Shown piece after piece: positions 1-34,619 of a DNA stretch of 55,781 nucleotides (the stretch's first letter is position 1; every line of letters begins with the position of its first letter). Position numbers and translations under genes: made by a program. This DNA is from Deltaproteobacteria bacterium (GTDB lineage Bacteria > Desulfobacterota > Desulfarculia > Desulfarculales > Desulfarculaceae): assembly GCA_020444205.1 (NCBI GenBank), contig JAHLLJ010000011.1, positions 1 through 55,781 of the forward strand, in the 5' to 3' direction. The notes beneath the pieces are model-generated. The model had not been told where the DNA came from and did not search any database. It worked only from the letters and a program-made list of their open reading frames with translations.

Positions 1-260
1 GACAGGGCCTCCAGGGTCTGCTTGGTGGGCACCGGCTCGCCCGCCCAGTGCTTTTGCAGCACCACCTTGCCCTTGAGAGCCTTTTCCAGCTTGTCCAAAT
101 ACATACCCACCACCGCCTTTTCGCCCAGGCGGATGTGGGAAGTGGAATAAACGTTTTCGAAAATAAGGGTTACCGGTTTGTCCGCCGCCTGGGCCTGGAC
201 CAGGTTCAGGCACAGCACCAGGGCCAGCCCCAGGGCCAACAGCCCCCAAAACCTTCTCAT
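1..260 (-). CDS. TRAP transporter DctP-type substrate-binding protein (5' part only)
   Basis: About 86 N-terminal residues are present; the rest lies beyond the window's left edge. The start is MRRFWGLLALGLALVL, a hydrophobic signal peptide ending near AQAADKP. The mature part begins VTLIFENVYSTSHIRLGEKAV, typical of periplasmic DctP-family receptors that hand carboxylates to TRAP permeases. It is on the same strand as, and 248 bp downstream of, the aconitase X small-subunit gene, so it may supply the substrate of that operon. No DctQ or DctM partner is visible. Family assignment rests on a partial sequence; a role as a carboxylate receptor is inferred from family and neighbours. Confidence 0.75.
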   Translation of the reverse strand, partial: MRRFWGLLALGLALVLCLNLVQAQAADKPVTLIFENVYSTSHIRLGEKAVVGMYLDKLEKALKGKVVLQKHWAGEPVPTKQTLEAL

Positions 261-508
261 AACTGCCTCCTCCCTAGTTACGGATCGGCTGCGCGCCTGA
301 AGTTTTTTGCGCGCGCCTTTCCCAATTAAATGCTTTAGCTTTTCGGCCATGTTCACTCAGTGGTTCTGATCGCCACTCAGCCTGGAGCCGAAGCAAGCTG
401 AAAAAACACACCGTCGGGATATTTGAGGTCGAGAATTCAGGGGGTCTTAAGATGTTGGTGCCAGGCGGTCTCCCCGTATTCGTTAATGCTCGTTTGGCGG
501 TTAAAACT

Positions 509-940
509 TCAGGCCGACAGAACCTCCACCGTGCCCGCCGCGCCGTCCACGCGCACCAGGTCCCCGGTTTTGATAACCGCCAAGGGGTCCTGATCCAATT
601 GATCCACCACCGGTATGGCTGCCTCGTAGAGGAGCCGACCGTACAAGAAACCCGTGGTGATTATCAACTCCGTTTCCCGGTTGATGATGGCCGCCGGGGC
701 ATTGCCGCAGCGGATGGTCTCCAATATCCAAGTGCTGCTGCTGGTGGAGCCCTTGCCATAGGGATAGACGAAGATCTTTCCCTTGATGCTTTGGCCGTGC
801 AGCTTCACCTTGCGGTCGTCGATGACTCCCTGGCTGGGCTCCACGCCGTGGGACCATACGATCTGCTCGTCGCTGACCAAAGCCCGTCCCTCGGCCACCC
901 CGGGAAGAATGCCTCGGCCCTTGAGAATGATCTTGCCCAT
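509..940 (-). CDS. Aconitase X small (swivel-domain) subunit, DUF126
   Basis: A 143-residue protein matching the stand-alone swivel domain of two-subunit aconitase X (AcnX type II). It shows the conserved GKGSTSSS segment near residue 64 and a nearby GNAPAAII segment, both typical of DUF126. The ATG lies six bases after the stop of the large-subunit gene and has an AAGGA site upstream. AcnX enzymes are dehydratases or hydratases. Known members act on cis-3-hydroxy-L-proline (bacteria) or mevalonate 5-phosphate (archaea). Here the neighbours are a CoA ligase and an HMG-CoA-lyase-like enzyme, so neither known substrate is the obvious choice. Confidence 0.88.
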   Translation of the reverse strand: MGKIILKGRGILPGVAEGRALVSDEQIVWSHGVEPSQGVIDDRKVKLHGQSIKGKIFVYPYGKGSTSSSTWILETIRCGNAPAAIINRETELIITTGFLYGRLLYEAAIPVVDQLDQDPLAVIKTGDLVRVDGAAGTVEVLSA

Positions 941-946
941 GCCGCT

Positions 947-2158
947 CTATCCTTCCACCAGGGCGCTCACCAGGCCCGCGGTATCGGTGTAGATCATGCC
1001 CACCTGGTGCTCGGAGGGCAGATAGTACGCCGCCTTGGCCGAGTCGGTGACCATGGTGCGGTAGTGGTTTTTGCCCAGGGGCGAGATGACCAGGCAGTTG
1101 CCGTCCATGATGCGGGCCCCGGCGGCGGTGATGTCTTCAACCAACCCCATGCCCTGGGCCAGCTCACACACCGTGGGCGAGGTGTAAACCCATAGCTCGC
1201 ATCCTGGCTTGAGCTTCTGGCCGCGCAGCAGGCCGGCCAGGTTTTGCATCTCGGGCACCGAGTAGTGGGGGCAACCCACCACTCCCAACTCAGCCTCGCC
1301 TGCGGCGGTGGTCATCTCCCGCTGCATGGCGGTGAAATCGTCCCGCCCGAAGCTTAGGCTTTCCTGAGGCTTGTCTCCCGCGAAGGGGTCGCCCGCCGTG
1401 GCCTCGGGGGTGAGGCCGGGGGCGTGGTACAGGGCCACCACCCCGCTGGAGGCCGCCGCCGCGCCCAGGTACTTCAGGTCATCCACGCCGGTGGTGTCCG
1501 GCAGGCCCTCCACCACCGGGATGCGGTTGCCCACGCTCTTGCCTATGAGCAGGCCCAGGGTGTTGTAGTCCAGGCTGCTCATTTCCCCGGCCGCCACCCG
1601 CACCAATACCTGGCCCCGCCGGTTCTCGCTCCGGTACAGCCCCATGCGCGGCATGCGCCCGGTAAGGGCGGCGCAGTAGTTCAGACCGGCTGGAGTGCGG
1701 TTGGTGCGCGCGCCCAGCACCGAGTTGGCAAAGGACACTGCCGAGGATTCGGCCCAGGATACGTTTTGCCCGAAGCGCGGCAGGTTGCCCGCCAGATAGG
1801 GGGTGCAGGTCCAGGCCGGTTGGGCCCCCAGGGTCAGCACTGCTTGGCGCAGGCGTTCCTGTTTGGCCGCGTACTCCTCCGGGATGCCGATGTCTCGCCA
1901 GTGGCGGTCGCAGATGGACAGGGGGTCTTCGGTGGTGGGGATAATGAACCGGCCGCCCAAGGCCACGAACTTTTCTGCCAATTCCAGGCCGGCGTCGTGC
2001 AGGGAGCCGTAGTGGGCCATGATCTGGGCCGAAGAGACCTCCACCAGGCGATCAGCCCCATAGATCTGGCCCAGCTTGACCAGCACCTCCATGGCGAAAC
2101 GGGGGGCCGGGCCCTCGCCCCCCTCCAGCATCCGCTTTTCGTAGTCGGTCAATTGCAT
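947..2158 (-). CDS. Aconitase X large (catalytic) subunit, DUF521
   Basis: A 403-residue catalytic subunit of aconitase X. The N-terminus MQLTDYEKRMLEGGEG and the segment RFAMEVLVKLGQIYGA are characteristic. The ATG at 2158 matches the usual family N-terminus; a GTG three codons upstream (2167) is the alternative. Family enzymes carry an Fe-S cluster or metal and remove or add water next to a carboxylate. The gene follows the lyase gene by 20 bp and precedes the small subunit by six, so translation is probably coupled. The substrate is unknown. The context suggests hydration of an unsaturated, possibly methyl-branched, di- or tricarboxylate before CoA activation. Confidence 0.9.
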   Translation of the reverse strand: MQLTDYEKRMLEGGEGPAPRFAMEVLVKLGQIYGADRLVEVSSAQIMAHYGSLHDAGLELAEKFVALGGRFIIPTTEDPLSICDRHWRDIGIPEEYAAKQERLRQAVLTLGAQPAWTCTPYLAGNLPRFGQNVSWAESSAVSFANSVLGARTNRTPAGLNYCAALTGRMPRMGLYRSENRRGQVLVRVAAGEMSSLDYNTLGLLIGKSVGNRIPVVEGLPDTTGVDDLKYLGAAAASSGVVALYHAPGLTPEATAGDPFAGDKPQESLSFGRDDFTAMQREMTTAAGEAELGVVGCPHYSVPEMQNLAGLLRGQKLKPGCELWVYTSPTVCELAQGMGLVEDITAAGARIMDGNCLVISPLGKNHYRTMVTDSAKAAYYLPSEHQVGMIYTDTAGLVSALVEG

Positions 2159-2178
2159 GGTTTTCACCCCGGCCCTTA

Positions 2179-3138
2179 TCAGCAGGAACAGTTGTCAGGT
2201 TGCCCCTTGGACTCGGCGGACTCCCATACCGGCCGGCCCTGGCGGCTGGTGAAGCTGGCCGGCTGGGTGTCCAATACCTCCTGGATCAGGGCGGTGGCTT
2301 CCAGCAGCTTGGCAAAGTCCACCCCTGTGTCGATCCCCATCTCCTCCAGCATGTTCACCAAGTCCTCGCTGGCCACGTTGCCCATGGCCCCTACCGCGGT
2401 GGGGCAGCCGCCCAGGCCGCCCACCGAGCTGTCGAAGATGTGCACTCCGGCTTGGTAGGCAGCATAGGCGTTGGCCAGGCCCAGGCCGCGGCTGTTGTGG
2501 AAATGGGCCGCCAGGCGCACCTGGCTAAGCTCCTGGGCTATACGCCCCATCTTTTCGCGCACCATGGCGGGATTGGCCATGCCGGTGGTGTCCCCCAGGG
2601 ATACCTCGGCCACGCCCATGTCGGCGTAGGATTTGGCGATGGACAGCACTCGCTCCTCGGCAATGGCTCCTTCGTAGGGACAGCCAAAGGCGGTGACCAC
2701 ATAACCCCGCAGGCTGCGCCCAGCGGCCAGGGCCAGCTTGGCGATCTCCTCGAATCCCGCCAGGGACTCGGCAATGGACATGCCCACGTTCTTTTGGTTG
2801 TGCGCCTCGCTGGCCGAGACGAACAGGGCGATCTCGTCCGCCGGGGTGTTCAAGGCGCGCTCACACCCTTTGAGGTTAGGGACCAGGGCGCTGTAGACCA
2901 CGCCCGGAGCCTTGCGGATGCCGTTCAGGACCTCCACCGCGTCACGCAGGGCGGGGATGATCTTGGGGTGCACAAAGGAGGTGACCTCTATGCGCTTTAG
3001 CCCGCTGGCCGACAGCCGGTTTATGAGCTCGATCTTTTGCTCGGTGGGAAAGAAGCCACTCTCATATTGCAGGCCGTCCCGGGGACCCACCTCCACGATG
3101 ACCGCTTGGGGGTTGTCCGTACTTGCCATATCCTTCAT
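2179..3138 (-). CDS. HMG-CoA lyase-type aldolase (DRE-TIM family)
   Basis: A 319-residue TIM-barrel lyase. It has the opening EVGPRDGLQ with catalytic Arg20 and metal ligand Asp21, the HFH pair at 212 and 214, and the cysteine loop GLGGCP with Cys245. The Cys-His spacing equals that of human HMG-CoA lyase, so the active site looks complete. The family cleaves HMG-CoA to acetyl-CoA and acetoacetate, and relatives cleave similar 3-hydroxy-acyl-CoAs. The open frame extends upstream into iclR, but the ATG at 3138 has a GGGAG site seven bases away and clears the iclR stop at 3155. With the CoA ligase and AcnX in the operon, the substrate may be an HMG-like CoA thioester. Confidence 0.88.
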   Translation of the reverse strand: MKDMASTDNPQAVIVEVGPRDGLQYESGFFPTEQKIELINRLSASGLKRIEVTSFVHPKIIPALRDAVEVLNGIRKAPGVVYSALVPNLKGCERALNTPADEIALFVSASEAHNQKNVGMSIAESLAGFEEIAKLALAAGRSLRGYVVTAFGCPYEGAIAEERVLSIAKSYADMGVAEVSLGDTTGMANPAMVREKMGRIAQELSQVRLAAHFHNSRGLGLANAYAAYQAGVHIFDSSVGGLGGCPTAVGAMGNVASEDLVNMLEEMGIDTGVDFAKLLEATALIQEVLDTQPASFTSRQGRPVWESAESKGQPDNCSC

Positions 3139-3154
3139 TGCCTGTCTCCCCGGG

Positions 3155-3949
3155 TTAGGCCGAGGGGTTAAAGGGCGCCGGTTGAGTGCAGCCCAACATG
3201 CGTGAAATCTCCTGGCAGGCCTTGGCCACCGCGGGAGCGAAATCATGGGTGGCTTCCTGCTGGGAGTGGCGCAGCAGGGGAAAGGCGATGTTCAGAGAGG
3301 CCACCGCGTATCCGGTGTAATCCAGAATCGGGGCGGCCACCGCGCACAGGCCCTTTTCCAACTCCTGGGCGTTGAGGGCAATGCCTCGGCGCCGAATGAG
3401 GGCCAGCTCCTTTTTAATGGCTTGGGGTGTGGTTATGGTGTGCACGGTGGCCGCCCTGAATTTGATTTGATCCAGCAGCCGCTCCAGCGTCTCCGGCGGG
3501 GAGAAGGCCATGATCGCCTTGCCCTGACAGGTGCAATGGGCGGGCAGACGCTCCCCGATACGGTGGCGGGTGTTGATTATGTGGCTGGCCTCCAGCCGAG
3601 CCACGAACACGATATCAGTGCCTTCCAATACCGCCATGTTCACCGTCTCGTCGCTCAGGGAGCGCAGTTGTTCCATGAAGGGCATGGCCACGTTGCGCAG
3701 GCTCAGGCTGTTCAGGGCCGAGGCCCCGATGGATATGTTCTGGGCGCCCAGGCGGTAGCGCTTGGTCTGGGCGTCCTGCTCCACGAAATTGAGCTCTTTG
3801 AGGGTAGCCAACAAACGGAAACACACCGTCTTGGACAGACCGGAAAGCTTGGTCAATTCATCCAAACTGGCCGCCGCCTCCTGCCTGCTGAGCAGAATCA
3901 GCAGATTGAGACCGTTAGTCAGGGTTTTGGCTTTCTGGCGGTCCGGCAT
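3155..3949 (-). CDS. IclR-family transcriptional regulator
   Basis: A 264-residue IclR regulator. The N-terminal winged helix includes LTKLSGLSKTVCFRLLATL. The C-terminal effector domain contains GERLPAHCTCQGKAIMAF, the characteristic ligand-pocket segment, and LNAQELEKGLCAVAAPI. It sits inside the catabolic operon, 12 bp after the SucD-like gene and 16 bp before the lyase, so it is probably co-transcribed with the genes it controls. Its likely operator is the palindrome at 6021-6039 ahead of the SucC-like gene. The effector is unknown; IclR members usually bind a pathway acid or intermediate. Confidence 0.92.
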   Translation of the reverse strand: MPDRQKAKTLTNGLNLLILLSRQEAAASLDELTKLSGLSKTVCFRLLATLKELNFVEQDAQTKRYRLGAQNISIGASALNSLSLRNVAMPFMEQLRSLSDETVNMAVLEGTDIVFVARLEASHIINTRHRIGERLPAHCTCQGKAIMAFSPPETLERLLDQIKFRAATVHTITTPQAIKKELALIRRRGIALNAQELEKGLCAVAAPILDYTGYAVASLNIAFPLLRHSQQEATHDFAPAVAKACQEISRMLGCTQPAPFNPSA

Positions 3950-3961
3950 AGCGCCTCTTGC

Positions 3962-4837
3962 TTACTTGAGAGCGTCCTTGAGCAACTCCACCACCTGGGC
4001 TGGTTGCAGGGCCACCCGGATGCCCGCCCGCTCAAAGGCGGTTAGCTTGCTCTTCATGGTGCCCCGGGTGCCGGACACTATGGCTCCGGCGTGGCCCACC
4101 TTGGTGCCTTCGGGAGCGGTGTGGCCCGCCACGTAGGTGACCACCGGCTTAGTTACCGCGCCGGAGGCCACCAGCTCGGCGGCCTCCTCCTCCATGGTCC
4201 CGCCGATCTCGCCCACCAGCACCACCGCCTCGGTCTGGGGATCGTCCTGGAACTTTTGCAGCGCGTCCCTAAAGCGCAGGCCCACGATGCGGTCGCCGCC
4301 CACCCCGATGCAGGTGCTCTGGCCCAGGCCCGCGGCGGTGAGCCGGGAGACGAACTCATAGGTCAGGGTGCCGCTGCGCGAGGCCAGGCCAATGGGGCCT
4401 GGCTGGAAGTAACGGGCCGGTACAAAGCCCAGCATGGTATTTTCCGGCGGGGAGATCATGCCGGGAGTGTTGGGCCCGATAACCGTGGCGCCCAGGCGTC
4501 GCTTGGCCTCCATGATGACCATGGCGTCCTGCAGAGGCACGTGTTCGGTAACGATGACCACCAGCTTGATGCCGTTTTCCATGGCGTCCAGGGCCGCGGC
4601 CTTTACTCCGGCGGCGGGGATGAACAGGATGCTGGCGTCTAGGGGTTGGCTTTGGCAGGCCTCGGCCACGCTGTCAAAGACCGGCACCCCCTCCACCTCC
4701 TGGCCACCGGCCCCGGGGCGAACCCCGGCCACGATTTTGGTGCCATAGGCCAGCATGTTGCTGGTGTGATGCCGGGCGGCGGAGCCGGTGATGCCCTGAA
4801 CGAGGACCTTGGTGTCTTTAAAGGCTATGATGCTCAC
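3962..4837 (-). CDS. sucD: Succinyl-CoA ligase-type alpha subunit (acid-CoA ligase)
   Basis: A 291-residue alpha subunit of the ADP/GDP-forming acyl-CoA ligase family. The N-terminal CoA-binding Rossmann fold has VQGITGSAARHH, followed by GPNTPGM and the SRSGTLTYEF loop. The phosphorylated histidine is His249 in GHAGAI, so the catalytic phosphorelay is intact. The start overlaps the beta-subunit stop by four bases (ATGA-type), implying translational coupling. The symbol denotes the family only. Placement with AcnX and an HMG-CoA-lyase-like enzyme argues for a dedicated ligase (like malate-CoA ligase) rather than the TCA-cycle enzyme. Confidence 0.88.
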   Translation of the reverse strand: MSIIAFKDTKVLVQGITGSAARHHTSNMLAYGTKIVAGVRPGAGGQEVEGVPVFDSVAEACQSQPLDASILFIPAAGVKAAALDAMENGIKLVVIVTEHVPLQDAMVIMEAKRRLGATVIGPNTPGMISPPENTMLGFVPARYFQPGPIGLASRSGTLTYEFVSRLTAAGLGQSTCIGVGGDRIVGLRFRDALQKFQDDPQTEAVVLVGEIGGTMEEEAAELVASGAVTKPVVTYVAGHTAPEGTKVGHAGAIVSGTRGTMKSKLTAFERAGIRVALQPAQVVELLKDALK

Positions 4838-5985
4838 GAAAGACCCTCCGTAATCTCGATTACCTGAGTCACCGAATCTTCCAGGCCGGCAATGGCCTCG
4901 ATACCCACCTGCCGCAAAATTTCCCGGCCTTGATCCTCGCGGTTGCCCACCATGCGCACCACCACCGGGAAGGAGGGCTGGTACTCGCTCATGAAGTCCT
5001 GAATGCCCAGGGCCAGGTCGTCGCAGCGGTTGAGCCCGGCAAAGATGTTGACCAGCACCGTTTTGATGCTGGGGTCATCCAGGAACAGGTGGAAGGCGTC
5101 GTAGATCCCCTGGCGATTCATCTGGGCGGTGTCCAGGAAGTTGGCCGGCTTGCCGCCACCGGCGCGCATCAGATCCAGGATGGCCATGGTGATGCCCGCC
5201 CCGCTGGAAAGAATGCCTATGTCGCCGTCCATGCGCAGGAAGGTCCAGCCCCGCTTGCGGTGGTCCTTTTCCAGCTCATACTCGGCATCGCTCTGCCCCC
5301 GGGGGCGCACCAGATCGGCCTGGCGGAACAGGGCGTCTTCATCAATGGCCGCGGTAGCGTCCAGGGCCAGGAAAGAGCCGCTGGCCATGACCAGCGGGTT
5401 GACCTCCAGCATCTCGCAGTCGAACTTGGTGTAGACGCCGTAAAGGGCGGTGATGATGCGGCAGAGCTCGGCCCGTTGCGCCTCATCCAAGCCATCCTGG
5501 GGCCCGTAGAGAAAACCGGCGATCTCTTCAGCCTGCTGGCTGGTAAGGCCCTGGCTGGGAGAGACAGCTTTTTTGATCACCCGCTCGGGATGCTCCTGGG
5601 CCACGCTCTCAATCTCCACCCCACCCTCGCGGCTGGCGATGAACACCGGACAGCCCTCGGTGTAGTCCACGGTGATGCCCAGATAAAGCTCCTGGGCAAA
5701 GTCCACCTTGGCTTCCACCAACAGGTTTTGGATCTGTTCTCCAGCGTGCTCTTGGCCCAGTAGCTGGGCCGCGGCCTGCTCGGCTTCCTGGGGAGTGTCG
5801 ACAAAGGCTATCAGCCCGGCCTTGCCCCGGGCCTTGATCATGGTTTGAGGTTTGATGACCACGGAACAGGCCAGACGTTCAGTCGCCTGTTTGGCCTGGG
5901 CGGCGGTGGCCGCCAGCTCCGAGTCCGGCACGGCGACTCCAGCTTGAGCGAGCAACTGCTTGGCTTCGTATTCGTAAATCCTCAT
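4834..5985 (-). CDS. sucC: Succinyl-CoA ligase-type beta subunit (ATP-grasp)
   Basis: A 383-residue beta subunit with an N-terminal ATP-grasp domain (MRIYEYEAKQLLAQAGV, KPQTMIKARGKAGL, EVNPLV) and a C-terminal flavodoxin-like ligase domain (GGGKPANFLD). The Gly-rich stretch that follows in ordinary SucC (LDVGGGAT) reads LDTAQMNRQG here, and the later NIFGGIVRCD loop reads NIFAGLNRCD. These loops lie in the region that contacts phosphate and acid substrate in the family. The changes therefore hint at an acid other than succinate; that is inference. It is the first gene of the operon, 36 bp downstream of a palindromic operator candidate. Confidence 0.88.
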   Translation of the reverse strand: MRIYEYEAKQLLAQAGVAVPDSELAATAAQAKQATERLACSVVIKPQTMIKARGKAGLIAFVDTPQEAEQAAAQLLGQEHAGEQIQNLLVEAKVDFAQELYLGITVDYTEGCPVFIASREGGVEIESVAQEHPERVIKKAVSPSQGLTSQQAEEIAGFLYGPQDGLDEAQRAELCRIITALYGVYTKFDCEMLEVNPLVMASGSFLALDATAAIDEDALFRQADLVRPRGQSDAEYELEKDHRKRGWTFLRMDGDIGILSSGAGITMAILDLMRAGGGKPANFLDTAQMNRQGIYDAFHLFLDDPSIKTVLVNIFAGLNRCDDLALGIQDFMSEYQPSFPVVVRMVGNREDQGREILRQVGIEAIAGLEDSVTQVIEITEGLS

Positions 5986-6020
5986 GAGCGTTCCTTGCGG
6001 GCGGAGTGGCGATCACCATA

Positions 6021-6039
6021 TATTCCGATAATCGGAATA
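6021..6039. promoter_or_regulatory. 19-bp perfect palindrome, candidate IclR operator
   Basis: The sequence TATTCCGATAATCGGAATA has nine-base arms around a single central base. It lies 36 bp upstream of the SucC-like start, downstream of the MFS gene. TTCCG...CGGAA dyads of this size are seen at IclR-family operators, and an IclR gene is the third gene of this operon. The adjoining sequence is AT-rich, but I could not fix a clear -35/-10 pair. Confidence 0.6.
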
Positions 6040-6115
6040 ACGTTTCTTTTTTATAAAATAGTAAATCCGCCTCTCCAAAGTCAAGGCCAAATTCGGCGCG
6101 GAAACTGGAGGGGAT

Positions 6116-7426
6116 TTAGGAGGACGCGCGGCGGGCCATGCGCCTTACTTTGCGGGGTCCGGCCTTCCAGATGAACAGGCAGGCGGCCCACAGGGAGGCT
6201 ATGAACAGCAGAAAGGCATACAGATAGCCGCCGGTCAGGTCGCGCAGCAACCCCGCCGCATAGGAGCCCAGGGCGCCGCCCACTCCGTTGCCCAAGAAGA
6301 TCACGGCAAAGATCAAGCCGAAAGACCCGCCCATGAACAGGTCGGCCGCGGCGGCGGGGTAAAGGGGGGTAGCCCCGCCGTAGCCAAGCCCAAAGAGCAC
6401 CACAAAGGCCAGGGCCAAATAGGGCTGCTCCGGGCTGATGAACATGGCTGCTACCAGGCCCAGAGTGCAGATCACCGAGGTGATGGTGTTGGTCAGTTCG
6501 CGGCCCAGGCCGTCGGAAATATACCCGAACAGCATCTTGCCCACCGAGCTGAACATGCCCACCAGGCCCATGTACAGCCCGGCCAGGCGCAGCGCTAGAC
6601 CGGCGTCTACCATGGCCGAGGCAGCGTGCATCAAGGTGGACTGAAAGCACAGGGAGCCAAAGCAATAGGCCCCCATCATCAGCCAGAAGGGGTGGGTGCG
6701 CATGGCCCGGGCCAGGGTCCAGGGCTGGTCGGCCCAGGCGGGGTTGACAATGCGGACCTCTTTCCCGGAGGGCCGCCCACGCCGGGAGCGGGGCTGGGCA
6801 CCATTGTCCGGCTCCAGGCCCATGGCAGCGGGATCAGAGCGGGCCAACACCAGGTTCAGAGGCAAGGCCACACAGGTGACCACGGCGGCCAGGCACAGAT
6901 AGGCCCCGCGCCAGCCCAAGGCGGCTATCCATCTCTCGGCCAGGGGCACCAGAATGAGCATGCCCAGGCCGATGCCCGCGAAGGCGATGCCCACGGCAGT
7001 TCCCCGCCGGCGCACGAACCAGCGGGAGAGTAAGGCCGAGTTGGTAGTAAAGCCCATGAAGCTGGCTCCGATACCGGCGAGCAGGCCATAGCTCAGACGG
7101 AAGAACCACAGACTCTGGGTGGTGCTGACCAGCACCAGGGCCGCGGCCAGTAGCAGGCCTCCCAAAGGCATGACCAGGCGGGGCCCAAAGCGGTCCAGCA
7201 GATAGCCCGCCAAAGGGCTGCTAAAGGAATTGCACACGATGAAGATGGAATATATGGAGGCGGTAGAGGCCCGGCTCCAGCCGAATTCCCGCACCAGGGC
7301 TATGAAGAAAACCGAAAAGGAGTACCAAACCCCAAAGACCACGGTCAGGTTGACCAGGCAAAGCCCGACGATAACCCAACCGTAAAACAGCTGGTGACGA
7401 TGCGCGGAGTTTTTGCCTGGCGACAT
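6116..7426 (-). CDS. MFS transporter, oxalate/formate-antiporter or monocarboxylate-transporter-like
   Basis: A 436-residue major facilitator with about twelve membrane segments. It begins FYGWVIVGLCLVNLTVVFGVWYSF; loops such as LDRFGPR and RWFVRRRGTAVG are typical of the OFA/MCT-like carboxylate carriers. The ATG at 7426 is preferred over an upstream GTG (7462) because an AGGGG site stands eight bases before it. The gene is on the same strand as, and 130 bp upstream of, the CoA-ligase operon, separated by the palindrome. It probably imports the acid degraded by that operon or a related one. The substrate is not shown by the sequence. Confidence 0.85.
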   Translation of the reverse strand: MSPGKNSAHRHQLFYGWVIVGLCLVNLTVVFGVWYSFSVFFIALVREFGWSRASTASIYSIFIVCNSFSSPLAGYLLDRFGPRLVMPLGGLLLAAALVLVSTTQSLWFFRLSYGLLAGIGASFMGFTTNSALLSRWFVRRRGTAVGIAFAGIGLGMLILVPLAERWIAALGWRGAYLCLAAVVTCVALPLNLVLARSDPAAMGLEPDNGAQPRSRRGRPSGKEVRIVNPAWADQPWTLARAMRTHPFWLMMGAYCFGSLCFQSTLMHAASAMVDAGLALRLAGLYMGLVGMFSSVGKMLFGYISDGLGRELTNTITSVICTLGLVAAMFISPEQPYLALAFVVLFGLGYGGATPLYPAAAADLFMGGSFGLIFAVIFLGNGVGGALGSYAAGLLRDLTGGYLYAFLLFIASLWAACLFIWKAGPRKVRRMARRASS

Positions 7427-7523
7427 GCCCCTTACCCCTGTGCTGGGAGAGGTGATCCTCACTGGTTGAACAGTTCAGCGGCGTTATTAAGGTGGATGGC
7501 CCTTGGTGTTTTCATGCCGCCAC

Positions 7524-7811: not shown

Positions 7812-8484
7812 CATCTGCAATTTTAAAGAGGGGTCGCAAAGATAAAGGATCGAACCAAATTCAGCGGATATCCTTGCTTAGCCTACTTTGAATTGTTGAC
7901 CTGTTTTAGATTTACAGCTTGTATGAATTCCCATTGCGACATGCGCAACTTTTACGCATTGTCAGGTCTTTGGGGCCGCCAATACCAAGTAACGCTTATA
8001 TGACATTTTCGGACGGGGGCTTCTAATTGCCGGGAGGCATATGCTAAAATTTTTAGTACACTGGCAAAGTTAAAAACTTCCCATCCGAAACAAGCACGCC
8101 CTCTTTTTTCAGACGCCCTACACTCGCCAGTGAGTAGTTAGTCGGTCCGCAAGACCTAAAACCGTAAAGCGTAGTAGGTCAAAATGTTGCGGCCAAAGCC
8201 ACTATTCGGCCGTCCGATGGCCGAAGGGCGTTACAACCAGCGCATAACTCCCCCAAAATCCGCCCCCGCCACCAGAGCGGAGGCGCGACGCTTCAGTCCA
8301 TGGCTTGGGTACACAGCCCAGACCGCGCCACAAAAGATACCTGCAATTCCTGGAAGGGTGATGGGGCCGGAATGCGTCTCCCCGCCTCTTCGGGAACTGG
8401 GAAACCCGCCACTCAGATGTGGTGCAAGATTGTTTGCCGAGGAGTATGGGTCCGCATTTTACTATCGATGGAAGGAGGGACCCT
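7812..8484. other. Non-coding stretch upstream of the C25 peptidase
   Basis: Roughly 670 bases without a convincing gene. The first part is clearly richer in A and T than the surroundings and may be further decayed mobile-element DNA. A short hairpin (GGTC CGCAA GACC near 8142) is visible, but I recognise no riboswitch or tRNA. The last bases carry the AAGGAGG ribosome-binding site of the peptidase gene. Confidence 0.5.
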
Positions 8485-10608
8485 ATGTCTGATTTTATTT
8501 CATTGTCACCATCAGGATTGGCAAAAGATTTTGATATCGAGAACTTTGGTGAAAAACCCATTGTCTCGGTGGAAGAGAAAAAAGACAGCATATCCATTAA
8601 CTACATTTTTCCCGGATTCACGGTCGGGGACAACGAACAGCAGGTGGGCGATGAGGCCATGCCCTTCAAGGAGGTGGGAATTTCCGGCGCTGGGTTCGTC
8701 TCGGTAAGCGGCCGCCCCCTTTTGCCCAGCCTGGGCCGTTTTGTGCAGATTCCTCCGGGCTGCGACTACAAGGTCTCGACAAAAAAGAACCGACCGGTGA
8801 AAATCGATGACCTTCTGGTGACCCCGGCCCAGGAAAACGCCACCGATCAGGCCGATGAGTCAGGGGAGTTCGAGTTTGATCGCCAGGCCTACCAGCGCGA
8901 TGCCCTGTATCCCAAAAACATCGTGGAGGTGGGGGAAGAGCAGAACCTGGACGGCTACAAGGTGCTGCCGATACATGTTTGCCCCTTGCAGTACAACGCC
9001 GCAAAAAGACAGCTGGTGGGATACAGCAACATCGAGGTGACCATAGAGCTCACCCAGAAGGAAGAGGACGACGCTGAACTGAACGAGTTCGGCTTCGGGG
9101 ATCCTGAATCCAATCTGGAGGGCTTCGGCAACCTGGTCTTGAACCCAAACCGGCGTATTGTGGAGCGCATACCCATCGCCCGGGTGCCTTCCGGCTTTGT
9201 CTTGAAACCGCGCGGGCCGGAGTTCCTGATTATCTATGATGACGGTCTGAAAGACGCGGCGCTCCGGCTGGCGCGGTGGAAAAACCGCAAGGGCCTGCAA
9301 ACCGACACCGTGCCCATTTCCACGGTTGGAAATACGGTGGCCAAAATCAAGAGCTATATCCGCAAGCAGCGTGGATTCCTACTCTCCCGCCTGCGCTATG
9401 TCTTGCTTTTCGGCGATGTGAACTCCATACGCGCTGAAGAGGTGGGTGGTAACACCACCGACCATTACTACTTCACCAAAAACGACCCCTCTGGCAGCAA
9501 TGACTGCCTGCTGCCCTGGGTGTCCGGAGGCCGCATCCCGGTTAGTTCCCTAAGCGATGCGGATTCAGTGGTTACTCAGATCATAGACTTCGAGCGTAAC
9601 CCTCCCGCAGACCCTGATTACTACCTGCGCATGACCTTTGCCGCGTTTTTCCAAGACGACTATCCCCAGGACGGGCGCGCCGACCGGGCCTACATGAAGA
9701 CCATGGAAAGTATTCGCTCCCACATGGTGTCCCAGGGCTTTAGCGTGGAAAGGGTGTATGTATCCAGCAACCCCAACCCGCAAAAGTATAAGGACGGCAG
9801 CAACGTGCCGGCAGCGGTAAAGGCCGCGATAATGGATGGCGGGGATGCAACAAATCTATTGCTAAGCGACACCTCGGAAGGTCAACTGGTCATTGGGCAC
9901 AGGGATCATGGCGGCGACTCGGGTTGGTCTCATCCTTCCTATACCACGGGCCATCTGCCCTCCATTGTGGGTCACATGCCTTCCATCTTCTACAGCATCA
10001 ACTGCCTGACCGGCCGCTTTGACAACACCACCAGCGACAGCTTTGCCGAGGATCTTTTGGAGCGGCGGGGGGGAGCCCCTTCCCTGATAGCCGCCACCGA
10101 GGTCTCCGGCACCTGGCGCAACGACAGCCTTATCAAAGCCTTGTTCGACGCCCTTTGGCCGGGGGTCATCCCCACCTTCCCGGGCAGCACGGCCAGCTAT
10201 GCGATCAAAAACCACCGTTTGGGCGACGTGCTCAACTATGGCAAATCCTATCTACTGGTGGCGCATGGGGTTAACTCGGGGGTGAAGGCGCATTTCGAAA
10301 TCTATCACGTGGTGGGCGACCCCACCCTGCAGCTGTATACCGAACGGCCTCGCACCCTGGTGATCAAGGCGGAAATATTGCGCAAAAAGCTGTACCTGCG
10401 GCTCAACACCTTGCCCAAGGGAACCGTTTTGACCGTGATTCACCGAGGCAGGGTGGTCAAGCGGAGCGCCTTGGGCTCCACCCGGATGAACCTGCCCGTC
10501 AGCGAGCTGCTGCTGAGCACAGCCCGGCCCAGCACGCTTCGTGATTACATTGAGGTGTGTGTGTCGGCCCCGGGATTCCGCTACACACGAACCCGGGTTA
10601 AGCTATAA
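8485..10608 (+). CDS. Gingipain-type cysteine peptidase (family C25)
   Basis: A 707-residue protein. The N-terminal ~200 residues resemble the C25 propeptide region. A caspase-like catalytic domain begins at EFLIIYDDGLKDAALRLARWKNRKG. The candidate catalytic pair is His475 in GHRDHGG and Cys507 in SINCLTGRFD, followed by HVVGDPTLQLY, the usual end of the domain, and a short C-terminal beta domain. The ATG at 8485 has an AAGGAGG site; an upstream in-frame start at 8419 lacks one. No signal peptide is seen, which is odd because gingipains are secreted. It stands alone, next to an insertion-sequence remnant. Its target is unknown. Confidence 0.85.
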   Translation: MSDFISLSPSGLAKDFDIENFGEKPIVSVEEKKDSISINYIFPGFTVGDNEQQVGDEAMPFKEVGISGAGFVSVSGRPLLPSLGRFVQIPPGCDYKVSTKKNRPVKIDDLLVTPAQENATDQADESGEFEFDRQAYQRDALYPKNIVEVGEEQNLDGYKVLPIHVCPLQYNAAKRQLVGYSNIEVTIELTQKEEDDAELNEFGFGDPESNLEGFGNLVLNPNRRIVERIPIARVPSGFVLKPRGPEFLIIYDDGLKDAALRLARWKNRKGLQTDTVPISTVGNTVAKIKSYIRKQRGFLLSRLRYVLLFGDVNSIRAEEVGGNTTDHYYFTKNDPSGSNDCLLPWVSGGRIPVSSLSDADSVVTQIIDFERNPPADPDYYLRMTFAAFFQDDYPQDGRADRAYMKTMESIRSHMVSQGFSVERVYVSSNPNPQKYKDGSNVPAAVKAAIMDGGDATNLLLSDTSEGQLVIGHRDHGGDSGWSHPSYTTGHLPSIVGHMPSIFYSINCLTGRFDNTTSDSFAEDLLERRGGAPSLIAATEVSGTWRNDSLIKALFDALWPGVIPTFPGSTASYAIKNHRLGDVLNYGKSYLLVAHGVNSGVKAHFEIYHVVGDPTLQLYTERPRTLVIKAEILRKKLYLRLNTLPKGTVLTVIHRGRVVKRSALGSTRMNLPVSELLLSTARPSTLRDYIEVCVSAPGFRYTRTRVKL

Positions 10609-31364: not shown

Positions 31365-32855
31365 TTATGGTTGCGGTCCTGCGTGGGGCGCTGCCTCGGA
31401 CCTAACCCGCTTTTGCAAAGCCTGATGCACCGCCTGGGCATCGGCCAGGACCGTGGGGTCCACCGGCGGGTGCTCGTGCCGGGTTGAGCTTTTAACCTTG
31501 CTGAAGAAGGGCTCGAGCTGCTGTTTCTCCAGTTGCAGGATGGGAGCCAGCTCTTCCAGGCAGGCTAACGGCTCACGGCAGAAACGGTCGTAGTCGAACA
31601 GCACGATGTCATCAGCGTGGTTGCTGAGCACATAGTCGTAAACCTGGCCCCAGTAACGCACCCAGTAGGAAAAGTTTTGCAACTCCTCGGGGCTGTTGGG
31701 CAGGGCGACGTCGCCCATGCGGAAGGGCTTGAGGTTGGAGCCGAACTCATGGTGTCCCAGCCAATTCATGTATTTCAGTGAGAAGGGGTCTTCCTGATGC
31801 GTTTTCACAAAACGCTGGTGCTGGGCCATCAGGGATTTGGCGTGGTCCAGCGGGTTGCGGAAGGGCACCAGGATCACCGCCTCGGGGAAGGCCTTCTTAA
31901 GAGAGGCGATGCGCAGCAGGTTGTTGTTGTTTTTGGCCAGATAGCGCAGGGGCACCTTGCCCGAATCCTTGGCAATGATGTTGGACACGTAGCGGCGGTA
32001 ATCGCGCAGCACCGCGTTGGGCGGCTGGTGGGGCGCCAGATAATGCTCGTTAACGTAGCGGTCCCGGTCAAAGGTCATCCAGAAGATTTCCTCAAAAGCC
32101 TCCGGGCTGTCGTAGTTCACCAACAGCCGGTCCTTGTGGGCCCTTTCCTTGAGCTCCGCGTGTTGCCGCCGGCCGGCGGAAATGGATTTCCACAGGTTGG
32201 GCGCGGTGATGAAAGGCATGTCCCGGTAGGTGAGGGTGGCGAAACGGTTGCTGGCGTAGATCGCCTCCAACAGGATGGTGGTGCCGGCCCGGGCCAGGCC
32301 GGAGACAAACACCGGCGGTCCCGGCGGCTTGGGCAGCTTGCGGGCGGCGGCCAGGGAGCAGTCCAGTTCAAAGGCGGCCTTGCGCACCAGGCGGCTGTCC
32401 AGGGCCAGATGGTGCAGCAGCCTGGAACCCAAGTGGTAGTCGCCCCCCTGCTCCGGGGTCAGCTTCACCCGGGCGAAGGCGTAAGCCGTGCCCAGTATGG
32501 CGGCGATGATCTGCACCGAGGGCTCCAGCAGCAGGGCCGCGGTGGCAAAAAAGCCGCCCAAAAACCACATGCCCACCAGGCAGAAAACCAAGGCAAAGCC
32601 CGCGGCCATGATGGCGATGTAGAGCAGGTTGAGCAGGCTGGCCGCCAAGATGGCCCCCGCGTAGTGGGGCAGGATTTTTTCTTTCCAGTGGTCCGAGACT
32701 TTGGAAGACCTGACCACCCCCATCACCTTCTGGGTGGCGGTTTGCAGGTGCTTGAGGTTGGCCATCATGGGCAAGGCGCGGAACAATTCCACGAAGACCA
32801 CCACCCCCGGCAGGCAGGCCAGGGCCTGGAGGGCCCAATCAGTCCAGGAGGTCAT
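31365..32855 (-). CDS. PAPS-dependent sulfotransferase with N-terminal membrane domain
   Basis: A 496-residue protein. The first ~170 residues include two or more hydrophobic segments (about 68-127). The sulfotransferase fold starts at PPVFVSGLARAGTT (5'-phosphosulfate loop, 186-193). A 3'-phosphate motif follows in VPFRNPLDHAKSLMAQHQRF, and DYDRFCREPLACLEEL lies near the end. The ATG at 32855 overlaps the small membrane gene by 17 bp; a longer frame (to 32999) is just overlap. It transfers sulfate from PAPS to a hydroxyl or amine, perhaps of a lipid or envelope glycan at the membrane. The acceptor is unknown. Confidence 0.85.
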   Translation of the reverse strand: MTSWTDWALQALACLPGVVVFVELFRALPMMANLKHLQTATQKVMGVVRSSKVSDHWKEKILPHYAGAILAASLLNLLYIAIMAAGFALVFCLVGMWFLGGFFATAALLLEPSVQIIAAILGTAYAFARVKLTPEQGGDYHLGSRLLHHLALDSRLVRKAAFELDCSLAAARKLPKPPGPPVFVSGLARAGTTILLEAIYASNRFATLTYRDMPFITAPNLWKSISAGRRQHAELKERAHKDRLLVNYDSPEAFEEIFWMTFDRDRYVNEHYLAPHQPPNAVLRDYRRYVSNIIAKDSGKVPLRYLAKNNNNLLRIASLKKAFPEAVILVPFRNPLDHAKSLMAQHQRFVKTHQEDPFSLKYMNWLGHHEFGSNLKPFRMGDVALPNSPEELQNFSYWVRYWGQVYDYVLSNHADDIVLFDYDRFCREPLACLEELAPILQLEKQQLEPFFSKVKSSTRHEHPPVDPTVLADAQAVHQALQKRVRSEAAPHAGPQP

Positions 32856-33063
32856 CGCCCTGGTTATCCTGCTTTTTTTTGCCTTTGCCGAACAGCCGCT
32901 TGATGGGGTACCAGAAAAAGGCCAGTATGGCCAAGATGACCGAGAAGATAACCCCCAGGATGGCCCCAATGGCCCCCAGCCCCAGGCCGGGGCCCACATA
33001 GGCCTGGGCGGTGCCGGGTAGCAGGAGAAGCAGGGCGGCCAGGGTCAGCAACGCTATTTGCAT
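32839..33063 (-). CDS. Small membrane protein in the sulfation operon
   Basis: A 74-residue protein with a signal peptide (1-21, GTAQAYVGPG) and one strongly hydrophobic helix (LGAIGAILGVIFSVILAILAFF). It ends with WYPIKRLFGKGKKK, a basic tail that would face the cytosol. It overlaps the ASST-type gene by 10 bp and the sulfotransferase gene by 17 bp, so it is almost certainly made with them. YVGPG...WYPIKRL proteins are a recurrent small family with no known role. A scaffold or lipid-binding partner is possible. Confidence 0.8.
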   Translation of the reverse strand: MQIALLTLAALLLLLPGTAQAYVGPGLGLGAIGAILGVIFSVILAILAFFWYPIKRLFGKGKKKQDNQGDDLLD

Positions 33064-34619
33064 TTGGGCAGCTCCTTGAAATAGTTGAGCGGCAATATCT
33101 TGGCCTCGGAGACGTTTAAAAAGCGGTTCTTATCGTCATAGGTGTTGAGGAACTCGAACACCACCTTGCCGTTGTTGTCCACCTCGAAAACGCGCCCTTG
33201 CCGCGGCGAGGTTATCAACAGGCCACCATCGGGCAGGAACTGGTGCTTACCCTGGATGTGGCTGTAGAAATTGTACTTCTTGCCTTCCAGCAACACCTTG
33301 CTCTTGTAGGTCTTGGGGTCGATCTCGATGATGCTGGAAAAGTCGCGGTGCATGTTGTTGTCGTAGACCGTGATCACCCCCCGCCGGCTCCAGTCGGGGT
33401 CGTGCTGGCGCCTGACCTGGCCTTGACGCCACCATTTCACCTTGAGGGTGTTTGGGTCCAACACGAAAACCAAGTCCACCGAGCGCAGGGAAACCAGCAG
33501 GTCCCCCGCCTTGAAGCCGGGGTACAGATGAGCCAGGGACTTGGGCAAGGGGTCGATGTCGTTGGGGTGCCACTGCCCCCCGCCGTCAACCACCCAGGTG
33601 GAGCGGTTGCGTTCGTCGAGCTGACGGATGCTGAAGATGTCTATGTTCGGGTTGGCGTCGATAATGGATTGCAGGGGGATGGACTTGATGATCTTGCCGG
33701 TGGCGTCGTCGATCTGCACCAGGCAATCCTTGCGGTTGGGGTCGTCGGCGGTGGGTCCCCACACCCACAGGGTGCCGTCGTCGCCCAGGGTGACGGAGTG
33801 ATGAAAGCCGCCCCGGAGGCGCCAGACGATGTTGCCGCACCAATCGTATTTGGTCAGGGAGGTGCCGTTGTCATAGGCGGCGTAGATGGAGCCGTCTCGG
33901 CCGATGTCGAACCCGTGGGGGAACACATTGCCGTCGTCGCGGTGGTCCCAGGGGACGTCTTCCTGGGTGGGCTTCCAGATGTGTTTCACCTTGCCGTCCG
34001 GGCCCAGCAGCACCACGCCGTAGCGTTTGTCGTCAAAGTCAAAGGCGCCGAAGATGACCCGGTAGACCTTGGGGGCGTCCGGGGAGAGAAAATACTTGGG
34101 AGGCAGGCGCCGCGAACGGATGGGCAGCCCCTCCAGGCTCTTGTAGACCCGGTCGCCGGGGGCCTTGAGGTCCACGGTCACTAAATGCCTGGACGGCACC
34201 AGGTCCAGGTCGTTGGCCAGCTTTTCCTCCAGGGTGGTGTAGCCCTCGCCCCGGAACCAGGATTCCATTTGCTGGACAATGGGATAGGGCCATGAGCGGG
34301 TGGCGTAGACGTAAAGACCCACGATAATGCCGATCAACAGCACCAGCCAACCGGCCATCAACCCCCGCCAAAAGGCGACGCGGCCCACGAAGGGCCAAAA
34401 ACGGGCCACTCCGGCCCAGAAATCTTTCCCCGAACGGCGCACCAGCCGGGCCAGCAGCTCGCCCAACAGCCAAAAAATAAAGCCGCCTCCCAGGGCCCCG
34501 GTGGGGATACGTACGGCGGCTTCGTCCCATCCATGATTGCCCAGCCAAACAAGCTGGAAGATTACACCGAGAAAAGCGCCCAGCAGGGCCAATGGAAGAC
34601 GGGAGAAAAATGCGCGCAT
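33054..34619 (-). CDS. Membrane-anchored arylsulfotransferase (ASST) family protein
   Basis: A 521-residue protein. Three hydrophobic segments within the first 110 residues are followed by a beta-propeller of the ASST type: DGKVKHIWKP, NVFPHGFDIGRDGSIYAAYDNGTSL, FHHSVTLGDDGTLWVW, GGQWHPNDIDPLP and GKHQFLPDGGLLITSP. Known ASST enzymes use a histidine to pass sulfate between phenolic esters outside the cytoplasm, without PAPS. Several propeller histidines are present, but I cannot assign the nucleophile. It heads the operon, so an extracytoplasmic transfer or structural role in sulfation is suggested. Confidence 0.8.
   Translation of the reverse strand: MRAFFSRLPLALLGAFLGVIFQLVWLGNHGWDEAAVRIPTGALGGGFIFWLLGELLARLVRRSGKDFWAGVARFWPFVGRVAFWRGLMAGWLVLLIGIIVGLYVYATRSWPYPIVQQMESWFRGEGYTTLEEKLANDLDLVPSRHLVTVDLKAPGDRVYKSLEGLPIRSRRLPPKYFLSPDAPKVYRVIFGAFDFDDKRYGVVLLGPDGKVKHIWKPTQEDVPWDHRDDGNVFPHGFDIGRDGSIYAAYDNGTSLTKYDWCGNIVWRLRGGFHHSVTLGDDGTLWVWGPTADDPNRKDCLVQIDDATGKIIKSIPLQSIIDANPNIDIFSIRQLDERNRSTWVVDGGGQWHPNDIDPLPKSLAHLYPGFKAGDLLVSLRSVDLVFVLDPNTLKVKWWRQGQVRRQHDPDWSRRGVITVYDNNMHRDFSSIIEIDPKTYKSKVLLEGKKYNFYSHIQGKHQFLPDGGLLITSPRQGRVFEVDNNGKVVFEFLNTYDDKNRFLNVSEAKILPLNYFKELPKCK

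Follow-up and report, generated by a model that had tools for sequence, protein, structure and literature searches.

Contig JAHLLJ010000011.1, from a deltaproteobacterium of the family Desulfarculaceae, carries a compact group of genes for the putative breakdown of a branched acid. The whole contig, 55,781 nucleotides long, is referred to here as the window; its assembly (genome G000) comprises 4.4 Mb in 342 contigs and is 82% complete. At 509-5985, six minus-strand genes encode SucC-like and SucD-like subunits of a coenzyme A (CoA) ligase, an IclR-family regulator, an enzyme resembling 3-hydroxy-3-methylglutaryl-CoA (HMG-CoA) lyase, and the large and small subunits of aconitase X (AcnX). The SucC and SucD genes overlap by 4 bases, and the gaps that follow measure 12 bases (SucD-IclR), 16 (IclR-lyase), 11 (lyase-AcnX large) and 6 (AcnX large-small). 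Families were assigned with Pfam and NCBIfam, against which the eight proteins of 3-7462 were scanned. Together with the coordinates and neighboring assemblies, these profiles confirm the six tightly spaced genes and families of a first-pass annotation made from the DNA alone, and the catalytic residues that it had numbered in SucD (His249) and in the lyase (Arg20, His212, His214 and Cys245) are in place.

3-260, minus strand: 5' part of dctP, a tripartite ATP-independent periplasmic (TRAP) solute-binding protein, truncated by the contig end; assigned by identity to the DctP of L003/G431
509-940, minus strand: AcnX small subunit (swivel domain), with a GKGST loop bearing the catalytic Ser-Thr; PF01989, 84 bits
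947-2167, minus strand: AcnX large subunit, type II, with Cys121, Cys299 and Cys358 as cluster cysteines; PF04412, 450 bits
2179-3138 (start at 3138), minus strand: HMG-CoA-lyase-type lyase with the four residues named above; NF004283 and HMGL-like
3155-3949, minus strand: IclR-family regulator; PF01614 (IclR_C, 156 bits) and PF09339
3962-4837, minus strand: SucD-like CoA ligase alpha subunit, with His249 in a GHAGA motif at 248; NF004230
4834-5985, minus strand: SucC-like CoA ligase beta subunit of a distinct clade, with a FLDTAQM loop and NIFAGLNRCD; PF08442, 170 bits
6116-7462, minus strand: major facilitator superfamily (MFS) transporter, 130 bases upstream of SucC; PF07690, 149 bits

The two outer genes encode transport proteins. 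The dctP fragment matched no Pfam or NCBIfam family, and it shares 78% identity over 87 amino acids with the DctP that follows AcnX in a genome of the same genus (record L003 of G431); the full-length L003 protein passes NF037995 (TRAP_S1) with 69 bits, where 50 are required. At the other end, the MFS protein lies below every NCBIfam cut-off and had no match in L029 (G058), the sole ligase locus searched with it, and its membership in the operon is uncertain. No CoA-transferase, MaoC or CitE family was found among the eight scanned proteins, and no hydroxyproline-cluster genes were among the families found in 3-7462. A chimeric contig is unlikely because the gene junctions recur in other assemblies (G196, G431 and G058).

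Features of the ligase, aconitase X and lyase

The ligase departs from succinyl-CoA synthetase in its beta subunit. SucD passes NF004230 (368 bits against a cut-off of 336), whereas SucC falls short of NF001913 (339 against 370), of a second model (322 against 376) and of the malate-CoA ligase beta model NF010647 (279 against 604). The motif FLDTAQM is found in 8/8 SucC copies from the seven genomes that carry this clade, where Escherichia coli SucC has FLDVGGGA and the malate-CoA ligase of Aminobacter has FLDIGGGA. A second motif, NIFAGLNRCD, is present in seven of the eight copies and reads HIFAGLNRCD in G058; its counterparts are NIFGGIVRCD in E. coli and NIFAGINRCD in the malate ligase. 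In this family, the two loops line the carboxylate substrate. Since TAQM replaces GGGA and SucC lies below the curated cut-offs, the ligase probably has a separate specificity, for a hydroxylated or branched diacid. On the same two grounds, we rejected a plain succinyl-CoA synthetase. Searches of open-licence papers on how succinate is bound, on the active site of HMG-CoA lyase and on mevalonate breakdown yielded nothing informative about the ligase pocket.

For AcnX, the best solved-structure match of the large subunit is 7cnr_A, a chain of the archaeal enzyme TkAcnX, and the small subunit aligns to 7cnr_B with the Ser-Thr pair kept. PF04412 and PF01989 lie in adjacent genes, as in type II enzymes, and cysteines stand at TkAcnX positions 110, 283 and 342, so that all three cluster ligands are present. 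Passages of the TkAcnX structural paper describe Thr63 of the small subunit, Ser130, Lys361, Glu129 and a water on Tyr365 as holding the carboxylate and C3 hydroxyl of mevalonate-5-phosphate, place Ser62 of the small subunit near C2, and assign the 5-phosphate to Gly48, Val49, Ser50, Asn53 and Asn79 (PMC8184944). When aligned to TkAcnX, the window enzyme conserves Glu129, Ser130, Ser131, Lys361, Tyr365, the Ser-Thr pair and the three cysteines, whereas its 5-phosphate columns read Ala, gap, His, Ser and Asp, and thus lack the phosphate site of type IIb. The window's residues recur in the large subunits from G431 and G058, whereas G001 retains the TkAcnX pattern. Asp203 and Ile206 of the hydroxyproline enzyme AtAcnX, which are Asp and Ile in the Pseudomonas aeruginosa enzyme as well, correspond to Met and His (TkAcnX columns 47 and 50). 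Against a 555-position AcnX model that spans both subunits in one chain and has a cut-off of 700 bits, the large subunit scored 283 and the small one 73, a shortfall that any two-gene enzyme would show.

Judged by landmark residues, then, the window AcnX clade is neither type IIa nor type IIb. We rejected a hydroxyproline role for the missing landmark residues and different neighbors, and a mevalonate-phosphate role for the lost phosphate site. HMG, the free acid 3-hydroxy-3-methylglutarate, shares the skeleton of mevalonate-5-phosphate and differs only at C5, a carboxylate; 3-methylglutaconate corresponds in the same way to trans-anhydromevalonate phosphate. Because residues for the carboxylate, C2 and the C3 hydroxyl are retained while the phosphate set is changed, AcnX probably carries out the C2-C3 chemistry of TkAcnX on a substrate acid that differs at its C5 end. 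Hydration would be the favored direction because the operon is catabolic and includes a ligase and a lyase.

Other AcnX genes were encountered as well. The window's genome has a second AcnX, about 30% identical, with TRAP genes (L047:2042-9389), and on the same contig, some 9 kb away, lies an HMGL-like (PF00682) frame (G000:C183:12084-12869). A sister AcnX in G023 (44% identity; L030:1236-4386) adjoins genes that by eye are 3-hydroxyisobutyrate-dehydrogenase-like and aminotransferase-like, which suggests a different substrate for this neighboring lineage.

The lyase scores 175 bits on the HMGL-like Pfam family and 384 bits, against a cut-off of 246, on NF004283 (HMG-CoA lyase, PRK05692 subfamily). 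Every lyase of this set that was scanned passes NF004283 (the window's, two of G058, and those of G337 and G020), and the model is silent on substrate because paralogues linked to CoA-transferases pass too. Genomic context discriminates where the model does not. With a G058 lyase whose neighbor is a degradative HMG-CoA reductase (487 bits on TIGR00532, cut-off 260), the window lyase shares 64% identity; the figure is 50% for the human HMG-CoA lyase and 42-43% for lyases found in the CoA-transferase operons of G058 and G020. The G337 lyase is 59% identical to the window's, 51% to the human enzyme and 45-48% to the latter pair, which is linked to LeuC/LeuD-type (LeuCD) genes. A lyase tree places the window with the HMG-CoA-reductase-linked lyase in a group of ten rows, at a fork whose support (89/97) does not reach the starred level; the pair of LeuCD-linked lyases has a long branch of its own. 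A third CoA-transferase-linked row, that of G433, is positioned apart from these, on a long branch flagged as unreliable by the program.

Several loci bear on the wider lyase family. In G058, a row of genes at L093:5417-11289 comprises a cupin-type regulator (by eye), the degradative HMG-CoA reductase, its HMG-CoA lyase and TRAP genes (by eye), and is likely an operon for mevalonate uptake and catabolism; among 12 genomes tested, only G058 had HMG-CoA reductase, which was not found in the window's 82%-complete genome. A parallel operon in G058 (L110:5440-16050) and G020 (L112:6487-13618) combines LeuC/LeuD-type genes, an HMG-CoA-lyase paralogue with the motif PRDGFQ, a class III CoA-transferase and TRAP genes, and in G058 an isopropylmalate-dehydrogenase-like gene; in G020 the lyase and CoA-transferase were scanned and the LeuCD and TRAP genes identified by eye, as were the TRAP genes in G058. 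This operon possibly represents a C5 (citramalate-type) route. Lyases similar to the window's also stand beside enoyl-CoA-hydratase-like genes in G172 and G431, where the matches listed are all under curated cut-offs. Another G431 homologue (L111:6918-8402) has GGQP for GGCP, with the catalytic Cys gone, near genes that by eye are MaoC-like, CoA-transferase-like and B12-mutase-like. Finally, a partial lyase gene in G321 (L095:8486-9070), 89% identical to the window's and near a contig end, is possibly an operon remnant.

Recurrence in related genomes

The ligase clade was found in 7/447 genomes: six of 395 in a sample of the phylum and three of 63 in the class, which added G431. The threshold was E<=1e-95, or E<=1e-100 in the three-genome class around G058, and no further members appeared in the small classes around G058 (2/3), G047 (1/5) and G337 (1/23). 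The AcnX clade, at least 65% identical, is present in 3/441 genomes (G000, G058 and G431), the next best being G023 at 44%; the phylum sample was searched at E<=1e-40 (recovering G000 and G058) and the class at E<=1e-60 (G431). Both totals count genomes after overlapping searches were resolved, and phylum searches scored at most four candidates per genome. Phyla beyond its own were covered only through a contig search, which reaches close relatives only, and a plasmid collection. A scan of genome contigs with AcnX large returned the single locus L003 of the near relative. In plasmids, tblastn with the same protein gave 160 records, all below 60% identity; of four inspected, one was a hydroxyproline cluster, one had other neighbors and two were unannotated. 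The SucC clade was not found in plasmids by tblastn, whose 103 records were all below 60% identity (35-38% among the 25 matches listed).

Partial clusters recur beyond the window; the first-pass annotation had made its scheme depend on conserved clustering. In G431, of the same genus (records L003 and L064), one contig begins inside the lyase gene and continues with AcnX large (84% identical to the window's), AcnX small, DctP, DctQ and DctM, while SucC and SucD occupy the end of a separate contig that breaks inside SucD; the same operon is likely present, split by assembly. The congeneric G196 has SucC-SucD-IclR-lyase at 84-94% identity, with no AcnX in the approximately 180 bases remaining on the contig, and its only AcnX at E<=1e-60 is 38% identical and lies elsewhere in the genome. 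In another family, G058 has SucC-SucD-IclR-AcnX large-AcnX small-DctPQM, in which the five enzyme and regulator genes are 59-83% identical to the window's and no lyase occurs. G337, also of another family, has a regulator (by eye), SucC, SucD, a TAXI-type TRAP binding protein, a fused TRAP permease and the lyase. Three contigs are relevant in G047: one with SucC-SucD-IclR-TAXI (binding protein by eye), one with SucC-SucD and an amino-acid-type binding protein (by eye), and one on which an IclR gene is paired with a lyase gene. This regulator shares 71% identity with the IclR that accompanies the ligase in G047, and this lyase shares 80% with the G337 enzyme. Lastly, the G020 ligase stands with IclR and a TAXI-TRAP system, with no lyase in the approximately 580 bases after the permease.

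Across the seven ligase-clade genomes, lyases of the window type (at least 59% identity) occur in six, and the AcnX clade in three (G000, G431 and G058), with no AcnX at E<=1e-40 in G020, G047 or G337. Linkage of ligase to lyase is direct in the window and G196, by way of TAXI-TRAP in G337 and through related IclR genes in G047. In 6/7 of these genomes, either the ligase or AcnX has a TRAP gene linked to it (none was seen in G196), and dctPQM follow AcnX small in G431 and G058. Homologues of the regulator, whose best NCBIfam match is PcaR/PcaU/PobR (TIGR02431; 192 bits, below the cut-off of 285), adjoin the ligase in G196, G058, G047 and G020. The genes do cluster elsewhere, though as partial sets: the full six were seen to share one contig only in the window, and the first-pass annotation's treatment of the six as a unit is weakened by ligase and lyase without AcnX (G196 and G337), ligase and AcnX without an operon lyase (G058), and ligase with neither of them beside it (G020). 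The unit is modular, with AcnX an add-on to a somewhat wider ligase core that is often, not always, accompanied by this lyase and a TRAP transporter.

A candidate route for branched dicarboxylates

We read these genes as a genuine, modular operon, linked to a transporter, that serves the breakdown of a branched dicarboxylate. On balance, we think that it takes up and degrades branched C6 dicarboxylates, converting 3-methylglutaconate or HMG to acetyl-CoA and acetoacetate. From the genes present, their residues, their clades, the pairs in which they recur and the transporter linkage, all of which are observed, we infer the substrates, reaction directions, ligase nucleotide, co-transcription and regulation. 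In the proposed sequence, a DctPQM TRAP transporter would import 3-methylglutaconate, HMG or both; the type II AcnX, an iron-sulfur hydro-lyase, would hydrate free 3-methylglutaconate to HMG; the SucCD-like ligase, with its altered substrate loop, would convert HMG to (S)-HMG-CoA; and the lyase would split this product into acetyl-CoA and acetoacetate, with the IclR protein as the presumed regulator. HMG is prochiral, and the ligase would need to select the carboxyl that yields (S)-HMG-CoA, since lyases of this fold act on that isomer (PMC6689899). The general order of hydration, CoA activation and carbon-carbon cleavage, put forward in the first-pass annotation, still seems the best reading of the sequences. 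More tentatively, with somewhat less than an even chance, such a hydration-first route would entail a new AcnX specificity (3-methylglutaconate hydratase or HMG dehydratase) as well as an HMG-CoA ligase derived from SucCD.

A C5 route is the first alternative, and we regard it as unlikely. Here, (R)-citramalate would arise by AcnX-catalyzed hydration of mesaconate, citraconate or a similar acid; the ligase would turn it into (R)-citramalyl-CoA, from which the lyase would release acetyl-CoA and pyruvate. The motif NIFAG(L/I)NRCD could point to citramalate (2-methylmalate), as malate-CoA ligase also carries it and malate is citramalate without the methyl group. The AcnX residue pattern also fits citramalate, with a chain one carbon shorter. 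The (R)-citramalyl-CoA lyase of Chloroflexus is HMG-CoA-lyase-like, and a parallel architecture exists in the LeuCD and CoA-transferase operons of G058 and G020. A lyase of another family accepts both (S)-citramalyl-CoA and (R)-HMG-CoA, as a passage of PMC6689899 has it, so that C5 and C6 can be spanned. Nevertheless, the C6 route is the better supported of the two, both of which rest on context, because the window lyase resembles the HMG-CoA-reductase-linked enzyme more than it does the CoA-transferase-linked ones. Of the two sets of acids in the first-pass annotation, 3-methylglutaconate and HMG are accordingly favored by these identities over those of the citramalate route. In G058, moreover, a C5 function would be redundant if the parallel operon, as we suppose, already serves as a C5 route for the same acid, and the operon that lacks a lyase is matched by an HMG-CoA-reductase-linked lyase elsewhere in the genome. 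That genome alone is indecisive because it has both lyase types.

Other observations weigh against the C6 route. The phosphate-contact Asn of TkAcnX is Asp in the window, and Asp is no obvious binder of a carboxylate. G020 has ligase, IclR and TRAP, its sole lyase match is the 42% paralogue, and no AcnX was found there at E<=1e-40. The window's lyase type also occurs in 6/11 ligase-free control genomes (at least 62% identity; partial in G321), so we rejected plain co-occurrence of ligase and lyase as evidence and count only adjacency. G196 has a second, unlinked lyase copy. The G337 lyase is not part of the ten-row group of the tree but stands across the root from it, together with the human, Bacillus subtilis and LeuCD-linked rows (91/88, an open symbol); a long-branch warning accompanies the tree, which includes no (R)-citramalyl-CoA lyase of proven function. 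Furthermore, the operon DctP is only about 25% identical to that of the HMG-CoA-reductase operon, and we know of no assay of any enzyme in these clades.

A further alternative, which we hold to be slightly less likely still, is that one transcription unit serves two functions, with ligase and lyase acting on one acid and AcnX hydrating or dehydrating another compound imported by the same TRAP system. The AcnX clade occurs in only three of the seven ligase-clade genomes, the G058 operon does without a lyase, 7/25 other AcnX loci listed (several of them short) have AcnX near TRAP without this SucC, and the G023 sister stands with aminotransferase-like and 3-hydroxyisobutyrate-dehydrogenase-like genes. 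Yet in 3/3 carriers (window, G431 and G058) the AcnX clade is beside the lyase or in the ligase operon. Very improbable is a chance neighborhood of succinyl-CoA synthetase, a leucine-breakdown HMG-CoA lyase and a cis-3-hydroxyproline dehydratase: SucD does pass a succinate-CoA ligase cut-off and HMG-CoA lyase is used in leucine breakdown, but SucC is under its cut-offs without the GGGA loop, AcnX lacks the Asp203 and Ile206 counterparts, hydroxyproline-cluster families are absent from 3-7462, and pairs of these genes turn up in further families of the phylum.

If the C6 route is correct, it would give an uncharacterized AcnX type II lineage an assayable function and nominate genes by which bacteria may activate free HMG. 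The roles reported for AcnX concern hydroxyproline and mevalonate-phosphate (parts of PMC8184944, PMC10040528 and PMC5144071); types IIc-IIf are described as without the landmark residues of both known enzymes in a passage of PMC8184944, and their functions as unknown in one of PMC10040528. Bacteria do feed on free HMG: it was depleted in bee guts by 5/5 Snodgrassella strains tested, although, according to the authors, the Snodgrassella genome has no annotation for the two initial steps by which it is used (PMC11343714). HMG and methylglutaconate accumulate in a Mycobacterium mutant without (R)-HMG-CoA lyase when leucine is the sole carbon source (PMC6689899, in part). A search combining aconitase X with CoA ligase, HMG-CoA lyase and operon returned only one unrelated open-licence paper, and in that literature, partly surveyed, we found no gene-level account of HMG or 3-methylglutaconate degradation, although one may exist. 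If confirmed, the TAQM loop would separate HMG ligases of the SucCD family from succinyl-CoA synthetase in genome annotation.

Elsewhere in the window, a peptidase family C25 protein with a propeptide domain (8419-10608) lies beside an opposite-strand CHASE2/adenylate-cyclase gene, and sulfotransferase-family and arylsulfotransferase (ASST) genes adjoin one another at 31365-34619 on the minus strand.

Comparison with known systems

Each component has a characterized counterpart from which it differs. The archaeal mevalonate-5-phosphate dehydratase (AcnX IIb; TkAcnX, PDB 7CNR/7CNS) is alike in its separate subunits, three cysteines and catalytic residues, whereas the window enzyme is without the 5-phosphate set and is linked to a CoA ligase, a lyase and TRAP genes, with no HMG-CoA reductase found. 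Hydroxyproline AcnX belongs to the same families, PF04412 and PF01989; in contrast to type I, the window's subunits are unfused, Met and His replace Asp203 and Ile206 of AtAcnX, and 3-7462 has no hydroxyproline genes. SucCD and the malate-CoA ligase MtkAB share the two-subunit families and the GHAGA histidine, and MtkA also has NIFAG(L/I)NRCD, but the window has TAQM for GGGA and no CitE-type malyl-CoA lyase in the operon.

At the level of pathways, mvaAB-type mevalonate catabolism has the HMG-CoA lyase type in common, and its G058 version also has TRAP genes; it proceeds from mevalonate via HMG-CoA reductase, where the window has a CoA ligase and AcnX instead. The lyase of Pseudomonas itaconate degradation is CitE-like and the hydratase MaoC-like. 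The logic of that cluster (ict-ich-ccl, with IctPQM) is similar, comprising TRAP uptake, CoA activation, hydration and cleavage (parts of PMC12599236 and PMC12290011). The window operon would differ in hydrating the free acid with AcnX, in using a ligase rather than a CoA-transferase, and in cleaving the product with a lyase of the HMG-CoA lyase family.

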